DNA of 20,675 nucleotides from a virus: the IMG/VR virus record IMGVR_UViG_3300044641_002037, positions 1 through 20,675 of that record. One strand, written 5' to 3'. The position numbers and the translations under genes were made by a program. A model generated the notes under the pieces. The model saw nothing but the letters and a program-made list of their open reading frames with translations. It ran no database searches and was not told where the DNA came from. This document shows, piece after piece, positions 5,903 to 18,681 of the stretch (position 1 is the first letter of the stretch; every line of letters starts with the position of its first letter).

Positions 5903-7245
5903 AATCCATACCTCTTAGCCAGTCTGGCTTGGTACACCCTCTCGGCCCAACCGCGCTTGTAGCCGCGTTGCTGCGCTAGCTCGCGGAGGGCATCCAAGTC
6001 GCGGGCTGAGGATTGCTCGCGCCGCTTAGCCACTGCCATCTCCACCAACTCCCCATCAACCTGCTGCAGCTCGCGGCGCTCCTGCGGCGCAAACACATGC
6101 CCGCATTCGCGGCACACCTGTACAGCGCTGGCGCTGGTGGCAAAGCACTGCGGGCAGACCTTGACTGATGGCGCTGCCTCGCGGTCGCGCTTTTTGATGC
6201 CGTCTAGCGTCCAGCCTCGTGGTTCTAAATGGTGGCCAAGCCTGAGCGTGTTGCCGACGTGGTCGAGCACCACGGCGCGCTTGCCAGGTTGCGGGCGCAA
6301 GCATCGGCCGATCATCTGCAGGTGCAGCGCCACGCTTGCCGTAGGCCTGAGCAGGATGCAGCCGCCGACTGATGGCACGTCCACGCCTTCACCGATCAGC
6401 GCGCAACTGGTGAGCACTTTGAGCCTTCCGGTGCACAAGTCCTGCAGCAGCTGCCGGCGCTGCGCGCTATCCATGCTGCCGTCAATACTTGCAGCCGGGA
6501 TGCCTGCTGATTGGAAGAGTGCTGCCACTGCCTCCGCGTGCGCCACTGAGCAGCAGAACGCGATTGCCGTCTGGCCTGGCAGGTGTTTGCGGTAGTGACC
6601 AAGGCAGTCGCCCATGATCGTGCCAACGCGTTGCTCAGCCTCCTTAGTGTCAAAGTCACCCATCCGTTTGCGCAACCCGGTGGAGTCAAAACCCGGCGGC
6701 GCCAGCACCTTGGCAGCAGCAAGGAATCCGGCATCTGTGAGCTGCTGCGCTGTTGGGCCTTGCACCATGGATTGATAGTGCTCGCCAAGGCCGCGGCCAT
6801 CTGAGCGGATCGGTGTTGCCGTCACACCCAGCAACTTGGCGGCATGGAAGTGCTGAACCGTCTTGGCCCACGTGCCAGCAGTGGTGTGGTGCGCCTCATC
6901 CACCACTAGGAGCTGGAAGAAATCACGCGGCAGCAGGTGCAGCCGGCGGGCAACGGTTTGCACGCTGGCAATCTGCACGGCATAGCTGAGATCCATGCTG
7001 CGGCCAGCGCTGATACGGCCATGCGGCATGGGCATAGCGCGGCTGGCCTGATCCAGCAGCTCCTGCCGGTGCACCAGCACCAGTACGCGATTGCCTTTGC
7101 GGCTGGCTTGCTCTGCGATGTAGCTAAAGCACACCGTTTTGCCGCCGCCGGTCGGCAGCACTGCTAGGACTGACCGCTTGCCGAGCTGATACTGCAGGCG
7201 GATGTCGTTGATTAGTTGCTGTTGATAAGGGCGGAGGTTCATCAT
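5899..7245 (-). CDS. SF2 DEAH-box helicase with C-terminal zinc finger
   Basis: 448-residue superfamily 2 helicase, expected to unwind or remodel DNA with ATP. Lobe 1 has an N-terminal LRPYQQQLINDIR Q-motif-like start, Walker A PTGGGKT (31-37), VVDEAHH (DEAH at 116-119) and TATP (142-145). Lobe 2 has GEGVDVPSV and motif VI QMIGRCLRP (310-318). A four-cysteine zinc finger follows (C364, C367, C378, C381), then a basic helical tail. The layout matches phage UvsW/RadD-like helicases. The ATG at 7245 overlaps the stop of the HNH gene as ATGA; a second ATG follows at 7242. The VRR-NUC gene downstream suggests a helicase-nuclease pair. Confidence 0.92.
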   Translation of the reverse strand: MMNLRPYQQQLINDIRLQYQLGKRSVLAVLPTGGGKTVCFSYIAEQASRKGNRVLVLVHRQELLDQASRAMPMPHGRISAGRSMDLSYAVQIASVQTVARRLHLLPRDFFQLLVVDEAHHTTAGTWAKTVQHFHAAKLLGVTATPIRSDGRGLGEHYQSMVQGPTAQQLTDAGFLAAAKVLAPPGFDSTGLRKRMGDFDTKEAEQRVGTIMGDCLGHYRKHLPGQTAIAFCCSVAHAEAVAALFQSAGIPAASIDGSMDSAQRRQLLQDLCTGRLKVLTSCALIGEGVDVPSVGGCILLRPTASVALHLQMIGRCLRPQPGKRAVVLDHVGNTLRLGHHLEPRGWTLDGIKKRDREAAPSVKVCPQCFATSASAVQVCRECGHVFAPQERRELQQVDGELVEMAVAKRREQSSARDLDALRELAQQRGYKRGWAERVYQARLAKRYGL

Positions 7246-7832
7246 GAATTTGCACCTTCAACTGCTAGTAAATCTTGCAAATGCAGGGATAATTTAACGC
7301 CACGCCGATGCTTGGACCTAGCTTGATAAAGCTGCCCCTTGATGGCCCAGAGCTCACTGTTTCGACGTTTTCTGTCTTCTAGTTCAGTTGCAAAATCTTG
7401 TGGGCATGGCGTAGTTAACGCTCTTTGCATGTCCCATCCGCGCTTAAGTCTTTCCCATAAGCGCCTGCTTCCAATGTTGTATTCGGCGGCCCAATCCCGA
7501 ATTGATTGAGTTTTGCCGTTCCAAGTAATAAGTCTTGAGCGGCGCGTGTTGTTGTTTTGTTGCTCTTGAGTTTGCCATTCGCAGTTGCTCGGTTCATAAT
7601 TGCCATCATTGTCAATCCTGCCGATAGTGGCGTTTTCAAATGGCGGATCATCCCAAAAGGAATAAAACGCTTGAAAATCCATCCATTCTTGGCAAACGCG
7701 AATACCCCGTGCGCCGTAGTATTCGTAATTATGATCATCTGGCAAATAACAACGCCGCCACATTGAAAGCCATCTGTGCATCATGTTGATCTTTGCTTCT
7801 GAGCAGTTTTGCACCAACGATTGATTGCTCAC
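7242..7832 (-). CDS. HNH-like homing endonuclease
   Basis: 196-residue protein resembling free-standing phage homing endonucleases. The nuclease-like part has MWRRCYLPDDHNYEYYGARG, VCQEWMDFQAFYSFW, then TIGRIDNDGNYEPSNCEW (the GRIDNxGNYxPxNCxW signature). It is followed by a DNA-binding repeat ITWNGKTQSIRDWAAEYNIG with the HTH-like RLWERLKRGWD, and a basic tail. It sits exactly between the two helicase genes, overlapping each by four bases (ATGA). One 60-base line inside it (7561-7620) holds 27 G or C, against 40 in a comparable line of the next gene (8041-8100), which points to a foreign origin. Confidence 0.85.
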   Translation of the reverse strand: MSNQSLVQNCSEAKINMMHRWLSMWRRCYLPDDHNYEYYGARGIRVCQEWMDFQAFYSFWDDPPFENATIGRIDNDGNYEPSNCEWQTQEQQNNNTRRSRLITWNGKTQSIRDWAAEYNIGSRRLWERLKRGWDMQRALTTPCPQDFATELEDRKRRNSELWAIKGQLYQARSKHRRGVKLSLHLQDLLAVEGANS

Positions 7833-10087
7833 ACCAGCACCCCCTGACGATTGCTGGCCACCTCAGTCAGGTTCTTGACCGCGCAGTTGAAATACGAAGG
7901 CTTCAGCTCAAAGCCGACAAACTGGCGCCCAGCTTGGATGCTGCAGTAGCCCTCGCTGCCAATGCCGGCAAACGGCGACAGCACCACGTCGCCTGGGTTG
8001 CTCCACAGCTGCAGGCCGCGGCGGATCACCTCCAGCTGCAGCGGGCAGATGTGGCGCTCATCCTCATTGGCGCGTGCGCTGCGGTATTGCAGCGTGTCGG
8101 ATGGGCTGATGTCCATCCATACAGGGCTGGCGTAACGCTGCCAGATGTTGATTGAATCCTTGATCGGGTCACCGCTCTTGGCTGGCGGATTCTCACCAGC
8201 AAACTCAGTGAATGGGCCAGCCACCGGCTCTGGGTTGTCGCCCAGCTTGCGTACGGTCACGAGGTAGTCAGGGATGCCTTGGCGGCTGAGTGCTGAATCC
8301 TTGCGCACTTGCTTATGCAGCAGGCCGATTGCCTTGGTGCGCTGCATTGCGGTGACTGGATCCTTCCAGATGCACACCTCGCTATGGAATACAAAGCCAG
8401 CAGCTTGGAAGATGCGCAGCATGTCACCGCGGAAGTCCTTTACGCCTATGAATCCATCGCGTTCTTTGCTGCTGGGCAGATTCATGCAGTGGAAGCTGAT
8501 CAGCCTGCTAGGCATCATCACGCGGTGCAGCTCTGTTGCCAGAAATGCAAAGTGATCAAAGAACTCCTGCTCAGTGCGGCTGTTGCCCATATCGCGGTCG
8601 CTGTTGCTGTAGGTGTAGAGCGACGCGAACGGTGGGCTGAAGATGCTGTAGTGGATGGAATTGCTGTCGAGTTGCTTGATGCTTTCTACGCAGTCGCCCA
8701 TATACATGTCCCATCCGTCGCCGGACTTGTGCTCAGTGATGTGCGGCGCGACTTGGCGTTGGATCTTTTTGAGTTGTTCCATTGTTTGTTGCTTCATGAT
8801 TTCAACCATTGATTGAGCCATTTGGATGCTGTCCGCTTCCTTGCGGCGGATGTTGTCGATCACGCGGCCTTCCGCCACGTCGTAGATGATGTGAGCGTTG
8901 ACGGGCTGCTCTTGGCCAAATCGCCAGCATCGACGGATGGCTTGATAGAACGCCTCGTAGCTATGCGACAGTCCAACGAATGCGACGTTGTGGCACCGCT
9001 GAAAGTTCAGGCCAAAGCCAAAGATGCTGGGCTTGCTGACCAGTACGCGGATCTTGCCGTCTTGGAAGTCAATGGCGGCCTGCCGCTTGTGGTCGTCAGA
9101 ATCCGAGCCTGACACCTCAACCGCGCCATTGATAGCCGCAGTCAGCGCCTTGCTCTCATCGTTGAGATCACACCAGATCAACCACTGCTCGGTGTTGCTG
9201 TTGGCCAGCTTGCCGGCAGCGGCTACGCGGAGAGCGAGCGATGCCTTGCGCACCTTGCGTTGGTCGTTGAGCGTGCGAGCCTCCATGGCGAACAGTGCCA
9301 TCTGGCCGTCGTCATTTGCTGTTGCCTCGCGTGGTGTCTCGACCGTGCAGTCTTGGATTTTCAGTGCCGGCAGCACGAAGTTGCCGTCCTCGTAGCCAAG
9401 GTCTGATGGCTTGCGGATGGTCACCGCCCAGCTGCAGACCCATTCCCAGAACTTGCTCCGCGCGTGACCCTTGAGTCGCCACTTAGCAGTGTCGCCGCCG
9501 TCATGCACAAAGAACATGGCCAGCATCTCGGTGCGGGTCATCACGCCGATGAATTCGGCATGGTTGCCGAGTTCCATGTGGTCGTTGGGTGCTGGTGTGG
9601 CTGAGCAGGCCAGGCGGTATGGCGTCAGGCTGAACGACTCGATGATCTGATTGCGGATCTTGCCGGTGTATGCCTTGAGGATGCTGCTCTCATCAAGCAC
9701 CACGCCGTCGAAGGCGGCTGGGTCAAAGTGGCTCAGCTTCTCGTAGTTGGTGATCGTGATGCCGGGCTTGACATCAGCCTGCGTGGCGGCAAAGCTGCAG
9801 CTGATGCCGAATTTGGCACCCTCGCGCACGGTCTGGTGTGCAACGGCAAGCGGTGCCAGTACCAGCACGTTGGCGCCAGTGTGCTGATGCACCTGATGCG
9901 CCCACTCAAGCTGCATGGCGGTTTTGCCCATGCCGCAGTCGGCCCAGATGCAGAACTTGCCAACGCGGCAAGCCATGGTCACGATGTCCCGCTGAAACGG
10001 GAACAGCGGCGCTGTGAACTGCTGCGGGTCAAAGCCGGCAACAGGTGCTGCAGTGGATTTGGAAGCTAGGAAGTCTTGGTAGGTCAT
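7829..10087 (-). CDS. SNF2-like helicase fused to an N4/N6 DNA methyltransferase
   Basis: 752-residue two-domain protein. Residues about 20-430 are an SNF2/SF2 ATPase: Walker A DCGMGKT (50-56), LDESS (131-135) in place of DEAH, SATP (162-165), GFGLNFQRC near 357 and motif VI QAIRRCWRFGQ (382-392). Residues about 455-752 are a beta-class methyltransferase with motif IV FSPPF (483-487) before motif I SPFAGIGSEGY (704-714), then VGFELKPSYF. SPPF favours N4-cytosine over N6-adenine, but this is not decisive. Between the ATPase lobes a polar stretch holds QMALF (262-266), a possible sliding-clamp-binding motif. No nuclease motif is seen, so it is not a complete restriction enzyme. Both ends overlap HNH genes by four bases. 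It probably modifies phage DNA during replication. Confidence 0.9.
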   Translation of the reverse strand: MTYQDFLASKSTAAPVAGFDPQQFTAPLFPFQRDIVTMACRVGKFCIWADCGMGKTAMQLEWAHQVHQHTGANVLVLAPLAVAHQTVREGAKFGISCSFAATQADVKPGITITNYEKLSHFDPAAFDGVVLDESSILKAYTGKIRNQIIESFSLTPYRLACSATPAPNDHMELGNHAEFIGVMTRTEMLAMFFVHDGGDTAKWRLKGHARSKFWEWVCSWAVTIRKPSDLGYEDGNFVLPALKIQDCTVETPREATANDDGQMALFAMEARTLNDQRKVRKASLALRVAAAGKLANSNTEQWLIWCDLNDESKALTAAINGAVEVSGSDSDDHKRQAAIDFQDGKIRVLVSKPSIFGFGLNFQRCHNVAFVGLSHSYEAFYQAIRRCWRFGQEQPVNAHIIYDVAEGRVIDNIRRKEADSIQMAQSMVEIMKQQTMEQLKKIQRQVAPHITEHKSGDGWDMYMGDCVESIKQLDSNSIHYSIFSPPFASLYTYSNSDRDMGNSRTEQEFFDHFAFLATELHRVMMPSRLISFHCMNLPSSKERDGFIGVKDFRGDMLRIFQAAGFVFHSEVCIWKDPVTAMQRTKAIGLLHKQVRKDSALSRQGIPDYLVTVRKLGDNPEPVAGPFTEFAGENPPAKSGDPIKDSINIWQRYASPVWMDISPSDTLQYRSARANEDERHICPLQLEVIRRGLQLWSNPGDVVLSPFAGIGSEGYCSIQAGRQFVGFELKPSYFNCAVKNLTEVASNRQGVLV

Positions 10088-10521
10088 TCGTTGGGTTGAG
10101 TCAGCCGCTTGTGCTGCAACAATGCTTGAAAGTCTGTAATTGAGTCGTAGCGATGCAATTGCTCCCGCGCCCTATGTATAGATGCGTGGCATTCGGAGCA
10201 AAGAATTTGAATGTTGTCTCTGTGATCAATCCCGCCATGCTTTTGCTCAAAAATATGATGAGCCTGTAATGAAACCGATGGCCTAATTGATTTGAGCAAA
10301 TCTCGGTGCCGCAAGCAAGACCAGCAAAAATCTCGCATATCGTCAGGCGCAAATTCAAAAAAGTCTTTGTTGACCTTGCGGCGTGGCGTTTTTAAATCCG
10401 TTGGCTTTGAGATCCACATGTGCCCATGCGTAGGGCAGCGGATCTCGCCGTGATGCTGAGTGTCGGGTCGAAACTTGAACGGTGATTCTTGCCCGCATTT
10501 GGGGCAAGGCATGGTCTCCAT
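10084..10521 (-). CDS. HNH endonuclease-like protein with zinc ribbon
   Basis: About 145 residues. The N-terminus is a zinc ribbon (MPCPKCGQ, then IRCPTHGHMW); a second cysteine pair (CWSCL) precedes the HNH motif LQAHHIFEQKHGGIDHRDNI followed by ILCSECHASIH, which shows the expected HH, central N and CxxCHxxIH. The ATG at 10521 is chosen because the promoter at 10550-10578 would start transcription near 10543, excluding the upstream ATGs at 10554 and 10578; the ATG at 10512 is an alternative. It is the first gene of the leftward cluster and its stop overlaps the helicase-methyltransferase start as ATGA. It is probably an invading homing-type nuclease, though a host-directed nuclease cannot be excluded. 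Confidence 0.82.
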   Translation of the reverse strand: METMPCPKCGQESPFKFRPDTQHHGEIRCPTHGHMWISKPTDLKTPRRKVNKDFFEFAPDDMRDFCWSCLRHRDLLKSIRPSVSLQAHHIFEQKHGGIDHRDNIQILCSECHASIHRAREQLHRYDSITDFQALLQHKRLTQPNE

Positions 10522-10549
10522 GGGCGCGAATGCCGTGAAGTGCCCTGTA

Positions 10550-10578
10550 ACCATAGCGAATCCCGCTAAGCTTGGCAA
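10550..10578 (-). promoter_or_regulatory. Sigma70-like promoter of the leftward cluster
   Basis: On the minus strand TTGCCA (-35, 10573-10578) is followed after a 17-base spacer by TATGGT (-10, 10550-10555). It lies in the divergent region between the HNH gene and the ribbon-helix-helix gene, and is the natural start of the leftward transcript. It overlaps the region just upstream of the rightward RHH gene, so the RHH protein might control it. Confidence 0.6.
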
Positions 10579-14512: not shown

Positions 14513-14836
14513 GTGGCAAAGAAGAGCACCAACGTCGAGATTGATGAGCGGGTAAACACCGTTTACGATCTCCTGTTGCGTGCTCACAGCAGGACGCAAA
14601 TCCTGCGATACGCGGCGGAGACATGGGGATGCGGCGAGCGCACCGCAGAGACTTACATGTCTCGCGCTCGCCAGCTCATGGCGTTGGATGCAGAGCTAGA
14701 GCGGCCGCAGTGGCTTGCTGCTGCTGTCGCTCGCTTGCAGGATTACGAGCGTGAAGCACGCGCTAAAGGCAACCTCAGCATTGCAATCAAAGCGCTAGAG
14801 GATCAGGCCAAGCTGTTGCGGTTTGAGATGTCATGA
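14513..14836 (+). CDS. terS: Putative small terminase subunit
   Basis: 107-residue protein from GTG at 14513, three bases after the clamp gene. The N-terminal part has an HTH (SRTQILRYAAETWGCGERT then AETYMSRARQLM) and the rest is a long helix pair (LERPQWLAAAVARLQDYERE, NLSIAIKALEDQAKLLRF), the usual make-up of small terminases, which recognise packaging sites and form a ring. Its stop overlaps the large terminase start as ATGA, which supports the call. The DNA-binding site is not known. Confidence 0.78.
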   Translation: MAKKSTNVEIDERVNTVYDLLLRAHSRTQILRYAAETWGCGERTAETYMSRARQLMALDAELERPQWLAAAVARLQDYEREARAKGNLSIAIKALEDQAKLLRFEMS

Positions 14837-16182
14837 GCTTGCTTGCTGGCATCTGCCAACCCGGCAGCCTGCTTGGGTTTATGGATGTCGCCACGCAAGA
14901 GGACACGGGCGATCTGCTGCAACGCATCCGCGCTGACCTGCACCCTGGGCAGCTTGCGTTTGTGGATGATAGCGATACGCAGATCATCGGCATCTCAGCT
15001 GGTTATGGCGCCGGTAAGACCCGTGCGCTGTGCGCTAAGGCGGTGATGCTGGCCGCGGCCAATCAAGGCTTCATCGGTGCAGTGATGGAGCCGACTGGCC
15101 CGCTGATCCGCGACATCTGGCAGAACGACTTCGAGAACTTCCTAGAAACGTATGAAATCCCCTACACCTTTAGGGCAAGCCCGCTGCCTGAATACATGTT
15201 GCACCTGCCAGGCGGTGACACCAAGATCCTGTGCCGCAGTTTTGAGAACTGGAGCCGCATCATCGGCTTGAACCTTGCCTGGGTGCTCGCGGATGAGATT
15301 GACACCGTGACGCCCAGCATTGCCAACAAGGCATTCCCCAAGATCCTTGGCCGCTTGCGCTCCGGCAACGTGCGGCAATTTGGCGCTGCATCCACGCCAG
15401 AAGGCTTCCGCTGGATGTGGAACACCTTTGGCAGTGAGGATGCCAAAGGACGCGCCGATCGCAAGCTGATCAAGATGCGGTCAGCAGATAACCCGCACTT
15501 ACCGCCGGACTTTATTGAGCGGCTAGAGGCCAACTACGACCCAAACCTGCTGCGGGCCTACTTGGATGGAGAGTTCGTCAACCTCACCACAGGAACCATC
15601 TACGACCGCTTCAGCCGCGACAAGCACGTAGTGGTTGAGCTGCCAGACCTAGACCGCGAGCCGTTGCGTATTGGCGTTGATTTCAACGTTGGCAACATGT
15701 CTGCCGTGATCGGCATCCGCACCGGCAGCAGCCTGCTAGTGATTGATGAGATCAGCGGCGCCCATGACACCGACGCATTGGCGCAAGAGATCCAAGCGCG
15801 TTACCCGCAGCGGCGTATCTACATCTACCCGGATGCCAGCGGCGGTAACCGCAGCACCAACGCAAGCCAGACCGATATCCAAATCCTGGAGTCCTACGGC
15901 ATGTCCAACCAGTCACCACGGGCGAATCCTCCCGTCCGTGATCGCGTGGCTGCTGTTCAAGCTTTGCTGGAAAACGGCAAGGGTCAGGTCAGGCTCACCA
16001 TCCACCAGCGCTGCAAGCGACTGATCGAATGCCTAGAACTGCAGTGCTACACCGACAAGGGCGACCCGGACAAGGATGCTGGCCATGACCACATGAACGA
16101 CGCGCTGGGCTACCTGGTCTGGCGTGAGTTCAACCCATTGCACGCAGGTGCTGGGCGATCTACAGGCATCAGGCTATATTGA
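14833..16182 (+). CDS. terL: Terminase large subunit
   Basis: 449-residue packaging motor and nuclease. ATPase part: Walker A GYGAGKT (57-63), Walker B WVLADEID (D154, E155), and the coupling motif in GAASTPEGF near 184-192. Nuclease part (RNase H-like): GVDFNVGNM with D283, YIYPDASGG with D334, and GHDHMNDALGY with D423. Length and motif order match phage large terminases. It starts directly in the small terminase stop and ends 24 bases before an AbrB-type gene, an unusual insertion before HNH and portal. The protein acts in prohead filling and cuts concatemeric DNA. Confidence 0.95.
   Translation: MSLLAGICQPGSLLGFMDVATQEDTGDLLQRIRADLHPGQLAFVDDSDTQIIGISAGYGAGKTRALCAKAVMLAAANQGFIGAVMEPTGPLIRDIWQNDFENFLETYEIPYTFRASPLPEYMLHLPGGDTKILCRSFENWSRIIGLNLAWVLADEIDTVTPSIANKAFPKILGRLRSGNVRQFGAASTPEGFRWMWNTFGSEDAKGRADRKLIKMRSADNPHLPPDFIERLEANYDPNLLRAYLDGEFVNLTTGTIYDRFSRDKHVVVELPDLDREPLRIGVDFNVGNMSAVIGIRTGSSLLVIDEISGAHDTDALAQEIQARYPQRRIYIYPDASGGNRSTNASQTDIQILESYGMSNQSPRANPPVRDRVAAVQALLENGKGQVRLTIHQRCKRLIECLELQCYTDKGDPDKDAGHDHMNDALGYLVWREFNPLHAGAGRSTGIRLY
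16175..16180 (+). promoter_or_regulatory. Possible -10 element before the AbrB-like gene
   Basis: TATATT lies in the last codons of terL, 27 bases before the AbrB-like start. No good -35 is found, so this would be a -10-only promoter at best. It would let the regulator be made separately from late genes. Confidence 0.25.
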
Positions 16183-16206: not shown

Positions 16207-16527
16207 ATGCTCAAGGGCGTCGAACTACTCGCCAAGGTCAAAGAACTGGGCAATGCTCCTAAGTCCGAACTGGTGCGCGCTTGTGGTTACGTGATCAAGG
16301 ATCGCGTGGCATTCACGCAGTTCTATGAAGCGCTGCTGGAAGCCAAAGGCGTTGATCTAGGCAGCAAGACAGCAAAGCGCGGCCGCGGCCTGACCTACAA
16401 GGCCAAGGTGCAATTCAACGGCAAGCTGCAAATCGGTGATGGCTACCTGCGCGAGATGGGATACGAGCCCGGCGCTGAGTTTGACATCAAGATTGGCCGC
16501 AATAGCATCACGCTGACTGCTGCCTGA
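16207..16527 (+). CDS. Cyanobacterial AbrB (cyAbrB)-family regulator
   Basis: 106-residue protein that resembles the cyAbrB family, transcription regulators found almost only in cyanobacteria, where they affect carbon, nitrogen and redox genes. The conserved N-terminal part is visible: LKGVELLAKVKELGNAPKSE, LVRACGYVIKD and FTQFYEALLEAKGVDLG. A basic linker (SKTAKRGRGLTYKAK) precedes an AbrB-like swapped-hairpin segment QFNGKLQIGDGYLREMGYEP ending in FDIKIGRNSITLTAA. Cellular members are about 120-130 residues, so this is a slightly short copy. It lies between terL and an HNH gene before the portal. It could be host-derived and used to change host transcription; DNA binding is inferred from the family. 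Confidence 0.85.
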   Translation: MLKGVELLAKVKELGNAPKSELVRACGYVIKDRVAFTQFYEALLEAKGVDLGSKTAKRGRGLTYKAKVQFNGKLQIGDGYLREMGYEPGAEFDIKIGRNSITLTAA

Positions 16528-16535
16528 TCTAATAT

Positions 16536-16575
16536 GGTGGCGCGGCGAGACGGCAATCTCCCGCGCCCGGCCACC
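16536..16575 (+). other. Strong 40-base hairpin between AbrB-like and HNH genes
   Basis: The sequence can fold as GGTG/CACC, then GCGCGG/CCGCGC, then GAGA/TCTC around a CGGCAA loop, with a bulge of five bases on the 3' side. No T-run follows, so it is not a standard terminator. It fills most of the 64-base gap and may protect an mRNA end or control the HNH gene. Confidence 0.6.
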
Positions 16576-16591
16576 TGCATCACCAAGCGGC

Positions 16592-17233
16592 ATGACCATT
16601 CTTACACAGCTTGATCTGTTTACGGCTGAAGCTCCCCGTTTGATTTACGGGCCATTCGTAAGCAGGCAGCAAGCAAAAGAAAAGCGCACGCCGTATTACT
16701 ATCCCGGCACCACATGTCGCCACGGTCATGTCGGTATACGGTATGCATCAACGGGGCAATGCTGTGAATGCATGTCAAACAGATCTAAGACAGACATCGA
16801 AAGAGAAAAACAGCAAAAAAGATCAAAGGCAAGAGTTTACACCGAAGAGCTGAAGGCGTATCACAGGGCTCGGTATAGGCGCAATAATCCAGTACCTAGA
16901 GTTTTCCATGCATCCGAGCATTCCGCTCGTATTGCTAGAAACTTGAGAAACAGAATGAATCTGGCCTTGAGTGGCACCAACAAAGTGGCATCAACGGAGG
17001 AATTGCTGGGATGTTCGTTTGATGTTTTCGTTGGGCATTTGCAGTCTCAATTCAAAGACGGGATGTCATGGGACAATCGTGGCCGCACCGGATGGCACAT
17101 AGATCACATCCGACCATGCGCTAGCTTTGACCTATCAGACCCAGATCAGCAGCGCCAATGCTTCCATTACACAAACATGCAACCTCTCTGGGCTGCTGAT
17201 AACCTAAGCAAAGGATCCAAGGCGCCGCTGTAA
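16592..17233 (+). CDS. HNH endonuclease with N-terminal clamp-binding-like motif
   Basis: 213-residue HNH protein. It has a cysteine-rich module (CRHGHVGIRYASTGQCCEC, about 44-62), a basic central part (EREKQQKRSKARVYTEELKA), a middle domain with LGCSFDVFVGHLQSQF, and the nuclease motif WHIDHIRPCASFDLSD followed by FHYTNMQPLWAADNLSKG, the layout of phage HNH nucleases with central N. At residues 6-10 it carries QLDLF, an exact match to the bacterial sliding-clamp-binding consensus QL(S/D)LF. The stop overlaps the portal start by one base (TAATG). A line inside it (16861-16920) has 30 of 60 G or C against 39 of 60 in a portal line, hinting at a foreign origin. Confidence 0.88.
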   Translation: MTILTQLDLFTAEAPRLIYGPFVSRQQAKEKRTPYYYPGTTCRHGHVGIRYASTGQCCECMSNRSKTDIEREKQQKRSKARVYTEELKAYHRARYRRNNPVPRVFHASEHSARIARNLRNRMNLALSGTNKVASTEELLGCSFDVFVGHLQSQFKDGMSWDNRGRTGWHIDHIRPCASFDLSDPDQQRQCFHYTNMQPLWAADNLSKGSKAPL

Positions 17234-18681
17234 TGGTCTATTCCGGCTTCAATAACTACGACCGGCCGATTGCGCAGCGCCGCGTTACTCGCGTACAGGA
17301 TGCCAACTCATCGTGGTACGCGATGGAGCAGCATTGGATCCTGATCGAGGATCTACTGCAAGGCACCTATGGGATGCGCCGCAAGCATCGCCGTTACCTG
17401 CCGCAGGAGCCGCGTGAGCTGGATGAGTCCTACGACAACCGCCTAGCTCGCAGCGTATGCCCGCCGTTTTACCAACGCCTTGAACGGATGCTGGCCGGCA
17501 TGTTGACGCGCAAACCAGTGCGGCTTGATGACACAGCAGATGTGATCAGCGAGCAGTTGTTTGATGTTGACCTACAAGGCAATGACCTTAACGTCTGGAC
17601 CTACGAAACCACTCGCAAAATGGTCCGTTATGGCCACGTTGGTGTACTGGTGGATGCACCTGCTAATGGGGGTCGACCCTACTGGGTGACGTACACACCA
17701 CGGCAGATTCTTGGCTGGCGTGCTGAGCAGCAGGAAGGCCGGCAGGTGTTGACGCAACTGCGACTTGCCGAGACTGTCACCGTGCCTGATGGCGAGTTTG
17801 GCGAAAAGGCAGTGGAGCAAATTCGTGTGCTGACGCCAGGTGAATTTCAACTGCACCAGAAGCAGGACGACGGCGACTTCAAGGTTGTCGACAAGGGCCG
17901 CACAAGCCTTTCTGAGATTCCTTTTTCAGTTGCTTATGCGCAGCGGCATGGCTTCATGGAGTCACGGCCACCGCTGGAAGACATCGCCGAGCTGAACCTC
18001 AAGGCATATCAGATCCAGAGCGACCTCGATAACCAGCTCCACATCAGCGCTGTGCCAATGCTGGCGTTTTATGGCTTCCCATCTGCAGCAGAGGAGGTTA
18101 GCGCTGGACCAGGCGAGGCGATTGCATTCCCTGCTGATGGCCGCGCTGAATACATCGAACCCGCTGGCCGCAGCTTTGATTATCAGTTCCGCAGGCTTGA
18201 GCAGCTTGCACTGCAGATCAATGAGCTAGGTCTGTCGGCGGTGCTGGGCCAGAAGCTATCTGCTGAAACTGCTGAGGCAAAGCGCATTGATCGCAGCCAA
18301 GGCGACAGCACCATGATGGTCATTGCACAGAACGTGCAGGATATGATCGACAACTGCTTGCAATTTCATGCGCAGTACATCGGCAACAACACATCTCCTG
18401 GCAGCAGCTACGTCAACCGTGACTTCCTCGGCACACGTCTTGAGCCGCAGGAAATCCAAGCGCTGCTGCAGCTTTACACCGCAGGCACCATCACGCAGGA
18501 AACGCTGCTGCGTGAACTTGCTGAAGGCGATGTGCTAGGTGACGACTTTAACGTGGATGAGGAGCTTGAAGCTACGGCCAATGCGGGGCTTGATCTACAA
18601 CCTGCTGGACTGGGTGACCGACCGCTTAGTGGACCTGATGATCTGGATGGAACCGAAGAAACCGAGGAGGCAAGAGCTTGA
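17233..18681 (+). CDS. Portal protein (DUF4055 type)
   Basis: 482-residue portal-type protein that would form the ring at the capsid vertex through which DNA enters. The DUF4055 pattern is seen: an N-terminal NSSWYAMEQHWILIEDLLQG, RLARSVCPPFYQRLERMLAG, then RYGHVGVLVDAP, a beta-rich middle (PRQILGWRAEQQEG, IPFSVAYAQRHG), LNLKAYQIQSDLDNQLH, and LSAETAEAKRIDRSQGDS, a conserved helix. The C-terminus is acidic and glycine-rich. Position between terminase and Mu F-like protein confirms the role. Its last hundred bases overlap the next gene in another frame. Confidence 0.9.
   Translation: MVYSGFNNYDRPIAQRRVTRVQDANSSWYAMEQHWILIEDLLQGTYGMRRKHRRYLPQEPRELDESYDNRLARSVCPPFYQRLERMLAGMLTRKPVRLDDTADVISEQLFDVDLQGNDLNVWTYETTRKMVRYGHVGVLVDAPANGGRPYWVTYTPRQILGWRAEQQEGRQVLTQLRLAETVTVPDGEFGEKAVEQIRVLTPGEFQLHQKQDDGDFKVVDKGRTSLSEIPFSVAYAQRHGFMESRPPLEDIAELNLKAYQIQSDLDNQLHISAVPMLAFYGFPSAAEEVSAGPGEAIAFPADGRAEYIEPAGRSFDYQFRRLEQLALQINELGLSAVLGQKLSAETAEAKRIDRSQGDSTMMVIAQNVQDMIDNCLQFHAQYIGNNTSPGSSYVNRDFLGTRLEPQEIQALLQLYTAGTITQETLLRELAEGDVLGDDFNVDEELEATANAGLDLQPAGLGDRPLSGPDDLDGTEETEEARA

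Follow-up and report, generated by a model that had tools for sequence, protein, structure and literature searches.

The HNH endonuclease gene of this uncultured phage is preceded by a short, conserved hairpin that probably (we put the chance at about 60%) forms the centre of a 5′ leader acting in cis, which belongs to a mobile HNH cassette and regulates nuclease expression through the mRNA. The same core hairpin recurs in 35 contigs of the IMG/VR collection (counted by hand from the listings, the window included), which represent 27 distinct leaders. By the window we mean the whole stretch of DNA that was analyzed, a virus record of 20,675 bases. Judged from these sequences, the family of leaders sits before mobile HNH genes of uncultured phages, most of which are related to cyanophages.

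Genomic setting

The record carries terminase, AbrB-like, HNH, portal and head genes. Its packaging-head region is ∼71% identical to the Synechococcus phages S-H1 and KBS-S-2A, and a cyanobacterial host is therefore likely. The genes that surround the hairpin are as follows.

14833..16182, plus strand: terminase large subunit gene (PHROG 2, E = 2.2e-42); most leaders of the family sit 3′ of a terminase gene
16207..16527, plus strand: AbrB-like gene, 5′ of the hairpin (Pfam PF14250, E = 3.5e-21, which we take to be the cyanobacterial AbrB family)
16592..17233, plus strand: HNH-type endonuclease gene, 213 aa (PHROG 1035, “endonuclease VII”, E = 1.2e-16)
17233..18681, plus strand: portal protein gene, 3′ of the HNH gene (PHROG 145, E = 2.3e-116), the start of which overlaps the HNH stop codon (TAATG)

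Two more HNH genes were observed in the window, at 7242-7832 and 10084-10578 on the minus strand (PHROG 3377; PF01844). The former has no room for such a leader, since its start lies inside the end of its upstream neighbour.

Extent and stability of the hairpin

The first-pass annotation had described a 40-base hairpin at 16536-16575, and both its sequence and its coordinates were correct. The two inner parts of the proposed three-part stem, together with the six-base loop, proved to be real and conserved, but the outer part did not: only 71–73% of its cells pair among the leaders, no pair covaries, and it was rejected as part of the conserved stem.

16539..16567, plus strand: conserved core hairpin (7 bp, a bulged C, 4 bp and a 6-nt loop), supported by covariation
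16536..16538, plus strand: outer arm as first described, pairing with 16570-16575; not conserved

In the core, positions 16539-16545 pair with 16561-16567 and positions 16547-16550 with 16557-16560, leaving C16546 bulged and 16551-16556 as the loop. Because the outer part is not conserved, the conserved stem ends 24 bases before the ATG at 16592, and not 16 bases as had been counted.

The 40 bases fold at −23.5 kcal/mol, a value equalled by 3 of 200 shuffles (z = −2.54), while a longer stretch around the hairpin gave a z of only −1.15. Among 10,319 segments of 40 nt sampled on the plus strand, seven, at five places, were equally stable. By energy alone the hairpin is thus unusual, not unique, and since a few other places in the window fold equally well, energy alone is insufficient for the claim. 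The absence of a T-run, already pointed out, was borne out, and no terminator was called at the hairpin on the plus strand; a reading as terminator was rejected on these grounds.

A family of leaders before HNH genes

A scan with one arm of the hairpin returned 109 stretches, mostly chance matches; it also showed that HNH genes at a second site, in the interval separating terminase from AbrB, are preceded by this hairpin. Further family members were among the matches listed by a scan with the region of the 3′ arm. When the 5′ arm was left free, 29 stretches were obtained, 24 of which belong to the leader family; the other five (L513-L517) have neither a stem nor an HNH start. Two further retrieval patterns were free of stem bases. 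The start-codon pattern CATGNNCATCATTACAC gave 57 stretches, including 20 with a leader and an HNH ORF and one (L472) with an HNH-like start and no hairpin, and the spacer pattern CGGCYACCTGN{4,8}CAGGCRACATG gave 28 stretches, all of them with both the stem and an HNH ORF. A covariance model, run against 252 sources, brought in L040/L223 and L084. The latter contig is from a phage that resembles the window in neither terminase nor portal, and the lower stem of its leader is wholly different (GGGGTGG/CCACCCC); its neighbouring genes, judged by eye, resemble tail genes.

At the gathering cut-off, no Rfam family was detected in the window, L454, L028 or L084, a lax E-value produced only noise, and a known RNA family was for this reason rejected as the identity of the leader. 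Structured RNAs beside HNH genes include the HEARO and OMEGA RNAs, which are much larger and belong to RNA-guided nucleases; unlike them, the window leader has no Rfam match. The collection of cultured phages, as searched, gave no convincing match to the leader. Hits in Mycobacterium phage Tonenili (E = 0.05) and in Synechococcus phages Yong-L2-223 and Ssp-JY38 (E = 0.8) were treated as chance, that in Yong-L2-223 lying inside a coding gene. In the Tonenili stretch (L451; NC_031080.1, 9807-9838) a hairpin is followed by CCAGCCACCTGCATCACGCGGCGGCATGACC, close to the spacer and start codon of the window, probably by chance. No description of the leader was found in the open-licence literature as searched, which included PMC10448857, PMC12724721, PMC2864571, PMC6083498 and PMC11855218.

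Position relative to the genes and the ribosome site

The distance from the end of the stem to the HNH start codon is exactly 24 nt in all 27 leaders. In contrast, the distance from the upstream stop codon to the start of the stem varies from 1 to 20 nt among the 26 leaders in which it is measurable, the upstream gene being terminase in 22 cases, AbrB-like in four and another gene in L084. Since only the distance to the HNH start is fixed, the leader is tied to that start, and not to the end of the upstream transcript.

These distances bear on a proposal, raised in the first-pass annotation for the AbrB-like gene, that the hairpin protects the upstream mRNA at its 3′ end. Extended to AbrB-like and terminase transcripts alike, such protection would render the insertion harmless, and a stem that begins so soon after the upstream stop codon would suit it. 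We nevertheless consider it very unlikely, given that the constant distance is the one to the HNH start, that a T-run is lacking, and that in phages lacking the HNH gene AbrB is not followed by the hairpin. For the AbrB-like gene in particular, the proposal is further disfavoured by the predominance of leaders that follow terminase.

Two further elements flank the core hairpin.

16568..16591, plus strand: conserved spacer, CGGCCACCTG..., 24 nt long in 27 of 27 leaders
16530..16535, plus strand: −10-like hexamer TAATAT, followed by G; the pattern TANNNTG is present in all leaders

The earlier caution that the stem does not cover the ribosome site was right. An SD-like AGG lies outside the core hairpin, on its 3′ side, in 24 of the 27 leaders (the window and two near relatives have no SD-like AGG), and sequestration of the ribosome site in the core stem was accordingly not found. 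The predicted accessibility of the site was not greatly changed by the hairpin, in a comparison of full with shortened transcripts that included no control. A possible second helix of 4 bp, between CCTG (16574-16577) and the CAGG of most members, would cover the SD-like AGG; this helix is unproven because it is nearly invariant and hence gives no covariation signal, and in the window it is broken, CAAG (16584-16587) replacing CAGG. One fold suggested long-range pairing of the TANNNTG box with codons 2-5; this was dismissed as unsupported, since cognate partners did not outperform permuted partners (p = 0.11, 22 distinct pairs). In most leaders the HNH frame contains no stop codon, and no upstream ATG is common to the leaders. 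An upstream peptide or N-terminal extension was rejected in view of stop codons in the HNH frame of three of the 27 leaders (L027, L028 and L507).

Each of the 27 leaders has a TANNNTG box 2–4 nt upstream of its stem. The T, A, T and G of the box are invariant, and the three middle bases vary, mostly between A and T. As a −10 promoter box it is suggestive only; if it is one, transcripts would start a few bases inside the 5′ arm. A −35 box was not enriched, the best matches scoring 3.1 of 6 versus 2.75 in shuffles. Part of the conservation may come from the insertion site, because the TATATT form, seen in eight of the 27 boxes, is also present at empty terminase ends; the remaining boxes come with the cassette.

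Covariation and conserved bases

Covariation was analyzed in 22 distinct aligned rows, comprising 238 stem cells, of which 97.5% are paired. Compensatory changes between homologous loci, on which the first-pass annotation had made its hairpin depend in part, were found on both sides in 8 of the 11 core pairs, a number reached in none of 500 shuffles, and no core pair was changed on one side only. Control versions in which the pairing was slid gave 0–1 compensatory pairs, and an earlier alignment of 19 sequences had given 5 of 11. In L040, L454 and L487, one base of the upper stem is missing from both arms together. Such a pattern of paired substitutions shows a structure that is real, under selection and not a product of chance. 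A GC-rich chance structure, or a functionless leftover of the insertion, would be in keeping with single-sequence folding that is only moderately unusual; it is hardly credible, being refuted by the covariation and by the paired change in arm length, provided that the alignment is correct.

Several positions are nearly invariant: the bulged C, the GAG/CTC of the upper stem, the CGGCYACCTG that follows and, in most leaders, the downstream CAGGCRACATG. A GCAA loop is present in 25 of the 27 leaders. The bulge, loop and CGGCYACCTG beside a freely varying stem resemble a protein- or RNA-binding element, such that a host or phage factor, for instance an antitermination factor, a ribosomal protein or another protein that binds RNA, might bind the hairpin and allow transcription to continue through it or switch the cassette. 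We regard this as distinctly unlikely, as neither a factor nor an Rfam family was found.

No G-U pairs were found among the 238 stem cells, and four of the six mismatched cells are A-C or C-A. This combination would be unusual for an RNA read on the plus strand, and the absence of G-U is the one result that fits an RNA role poorly. It keeps alive a role as DNA, in which a cruciform or single-stranded hairpin would serve the spread of the cassette, or would be bound or cut by the encoded nuclease; the imbalance of four events versus none amounts to only p ∼0.06. The stem sequence, however, is not conserved, contrary to the need of a base-reading protein, and the fixed spacing of 24 nt to the start codon, with the conserved bases around that start, points to gene expression. 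A DNA role is unlikely on this evidence and on that of the cassette and the protein, given below.

The leader and the HNH gene as a mobile cassette

16528..17229, plus strand: inserted cassette of leader and HNH gene, between the AbrB-like and portal genes; its ends are approximate to a few bases

At the AbrB-portal junction of loci that have both genes, usually 23–26 bases separate the AbrB stop codon TAA from the start of the portal gene, and hairpin and HNH gene are absent. Both are present at this junction in the window, L054, L082/L180 and L083; in the window, the inserted sequence runs from the AbrB stop codon into the final codons ahead of the portal gene. The junction is empty in most relatives, as is the case for free-standing phage HNH homing-endonuclease cassettes, and comparison of these junctions shows leader and HNH gene to be an insertion. 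Leader and HNH gene together are 94–100% identical between the window and L083, whereas terminase, AbrB and portal are 63–83% identical; hairpin and gene thus moved together. In L272 and L297, 73 of 74 bases agree from the hairpin to codon 6, while the gene bodies are only 46–69% identical and the contexts differ, one being 3′ of AbrB and the other 3′ of terminase; the HNH gene of L272 is truncated (129 aa) behind an intact leader. Taken at the level of sequence, these comparisons show that the leader moves with the gene and is common to quite different HNH genes.

That leaders recombine between cassettes would also suit a DNA role, against which stands the lack of a matching structure at the 3′ end of the cassette, where none was seen by eye. 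A more far-reaching idea is that the leader is itself the mobile module, swapped among unlike HNH nucleases, with its shape, as RNA or single-stranded DNA, recognized by the nuclease or by the phage replication machinery. We hold this to be quite improbable; if it were true, one portable hairpin would control or spread a whole class of selfish genes.

Other inserts were observed at the AbrB-portal junction in L042, L160/L036, L166, L170, L171, L201 and L203. That of L042 contains a 266-aa ORF of PAPS-reductase type, judged by eye, and those of L160, L166, L170, L171, L201 and L203 measure 1.5–1.75 kb. Empty junctions (e.g., L023 and L165) contain an ORF of five codons, MTAAL; its stop codon overlaps the start of the portal gene, like that of the window HNH gene. 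Directly behind the terminase stop of L050, L060, L062, L065 and L072, which have neither HNH nor AbrB, a promoter-like TTGACC-N16/17-TATCTT or TATAGT is located, less clear in L050 and L072. A promoter-like sequence of this kind marks the precise end of the HNH cassette in L347, L383 and L450, the stop codon TGA of the cassette lying inside TTGACC.

The HNH protein

The window HNH protein contains an N-terminal CxxGH...CxxC and a C-terminal HIDH...N...N motif, in which the elements of an HNH catalytic motif (H, central N, H/N) are present; D171, H172, N195 and N204 are invariant in 28 aligned sequences. Its profile matches are PHROG 1035 (endonuclease VII) and small N-terminal families, and no model of Pfam or NCBIfam matched it. 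For the predicted fold (pLDDT 81, pTM 0.48), comparison with the PDB gave nothing informative and no match below E = 0.001. The consensus of the Endo VII / DHHRN group, as set out in PMC6083498, is DHDH with flanking CX2-4C and CX2C. The window protein departs from it in having HIDH and no catalytic CX2C, and the conserved HxDH...N...N is as expected for an HNH nuclease and does not agree with the DHDH pattern that Endo VII and F-CphI show. The PHROG label would favour the DNA role of the hairpin discussed above, and the motif, an HNH pattern with central N instead of the DHDH of Endo VII, speaks against it.

A general rule of hairpins before Endo VII-like HNH genes was rejected: at z < −2, hairpins precede 7 of 44 such loci (picked from 74 in L086-L159) versus 28 of 300 control ORFs (p = 0.18), and at z < −3, a cut-off looked at second, p was 0.047. 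A second, unrelated HNH leader was observed in L107 (3660-3740), L108, L111 (3915-3995) and L132 (3642-3722). Two downstream copies, which change together with its 5′ arm (TTGAACA or TTTATCA), are alternative pairing partners of that arm; the last copy touches an SD-like AAGG, and the leader may be bistable.

Proposed action and relation to known systems

As the core of an mRNA leader, the hairpin would govern the timing or the amount of nuclease synthesis; this action in the mRNA is the step that we infer. In the likeliest version, read-through transcripts from the terminase or AbrB-like gene would carry the whole hairpin directly before the initiation region, and those initiated at the −10-like box would have their 5′ end at the 5′ arm or a few bases within it. 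Leaders of T4 homing endonucleases and of lysozyme are laid out in this way, except that the ribosome site here lies 3′ of the hairpin and not within it. One possible effect is that the hairpin limits the access of ribosomes arriving from the upstream stop codon. Alternatively, it could stabilize the 5′ end of the nuclease mRNA, and the present data fit both steps alike.

Hairpins of the T4 type hide the ribosome site of I-TevI to I-TevIII, segB and mobE, and transcripts from late promoters are without the hairpin, according to PMC2988022; the lysozyme gene e is a further case of a hairpin leader, as covered in PMC3014915. The window shares with these systems a conserved hairpin directly before the gene. 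The first-pass annotation had drawn this analogy, which holds insofar as a covarying hairpin travels with an inserted HNH gene at a fixed distance, and breaks down at the ribosome site, which is uncovered here. The leaders of I-TevI, I-TevII, I-TevIII, segB and Aeh1 mobE, as described in PMC2988022 and PMC3014915, likewise precede homing endonucleases, with a promoter at or near the 5′ arm (putative in the window), but their hairpins, unlike ours, sequester the ribosome site. An exception in PMC2988022 is seg43(25) of Aeromonas phage 25, in which the hairpin is upstream of the ribosome site and its effect is left open. There, as in the window, a very stable hairpin lies just upstream of the ribosome site of a free-standing endonuclease gene without covering it; that gene is segD-like, segD being described as of GIY-YIG type, whereas here a covarying family precedes HNH genes in relatives of cyanophages. 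F-CphI / DHHRN of cyanophage S-PM2 (PMC6083498) is similarly a free-standing nuclease of a cyanophage with a similar PHROG label; the window protein differs in its HNH pattern with central N, and in the lack of DHDH and of the catalytic CX2C. Neither “hairpin” nor “secondary structure” appears in the main text of PMC6083498.

Homing endonucleases controlled by hairpins are known chiefly from phages of the T4 type, in which the ribosome site is hidden. The leaders described here add a covariation-supported hairpin family that leaves the ribosome site free, a layout for which seg43(25) is the one precedent, and that is borne by many HNH cassettes of uncultured, mostly cyanophage-related phages. 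Its 27 natural variants provide material for testing both the function of the hairpin and the exchange of leaders independently of the nuclease.
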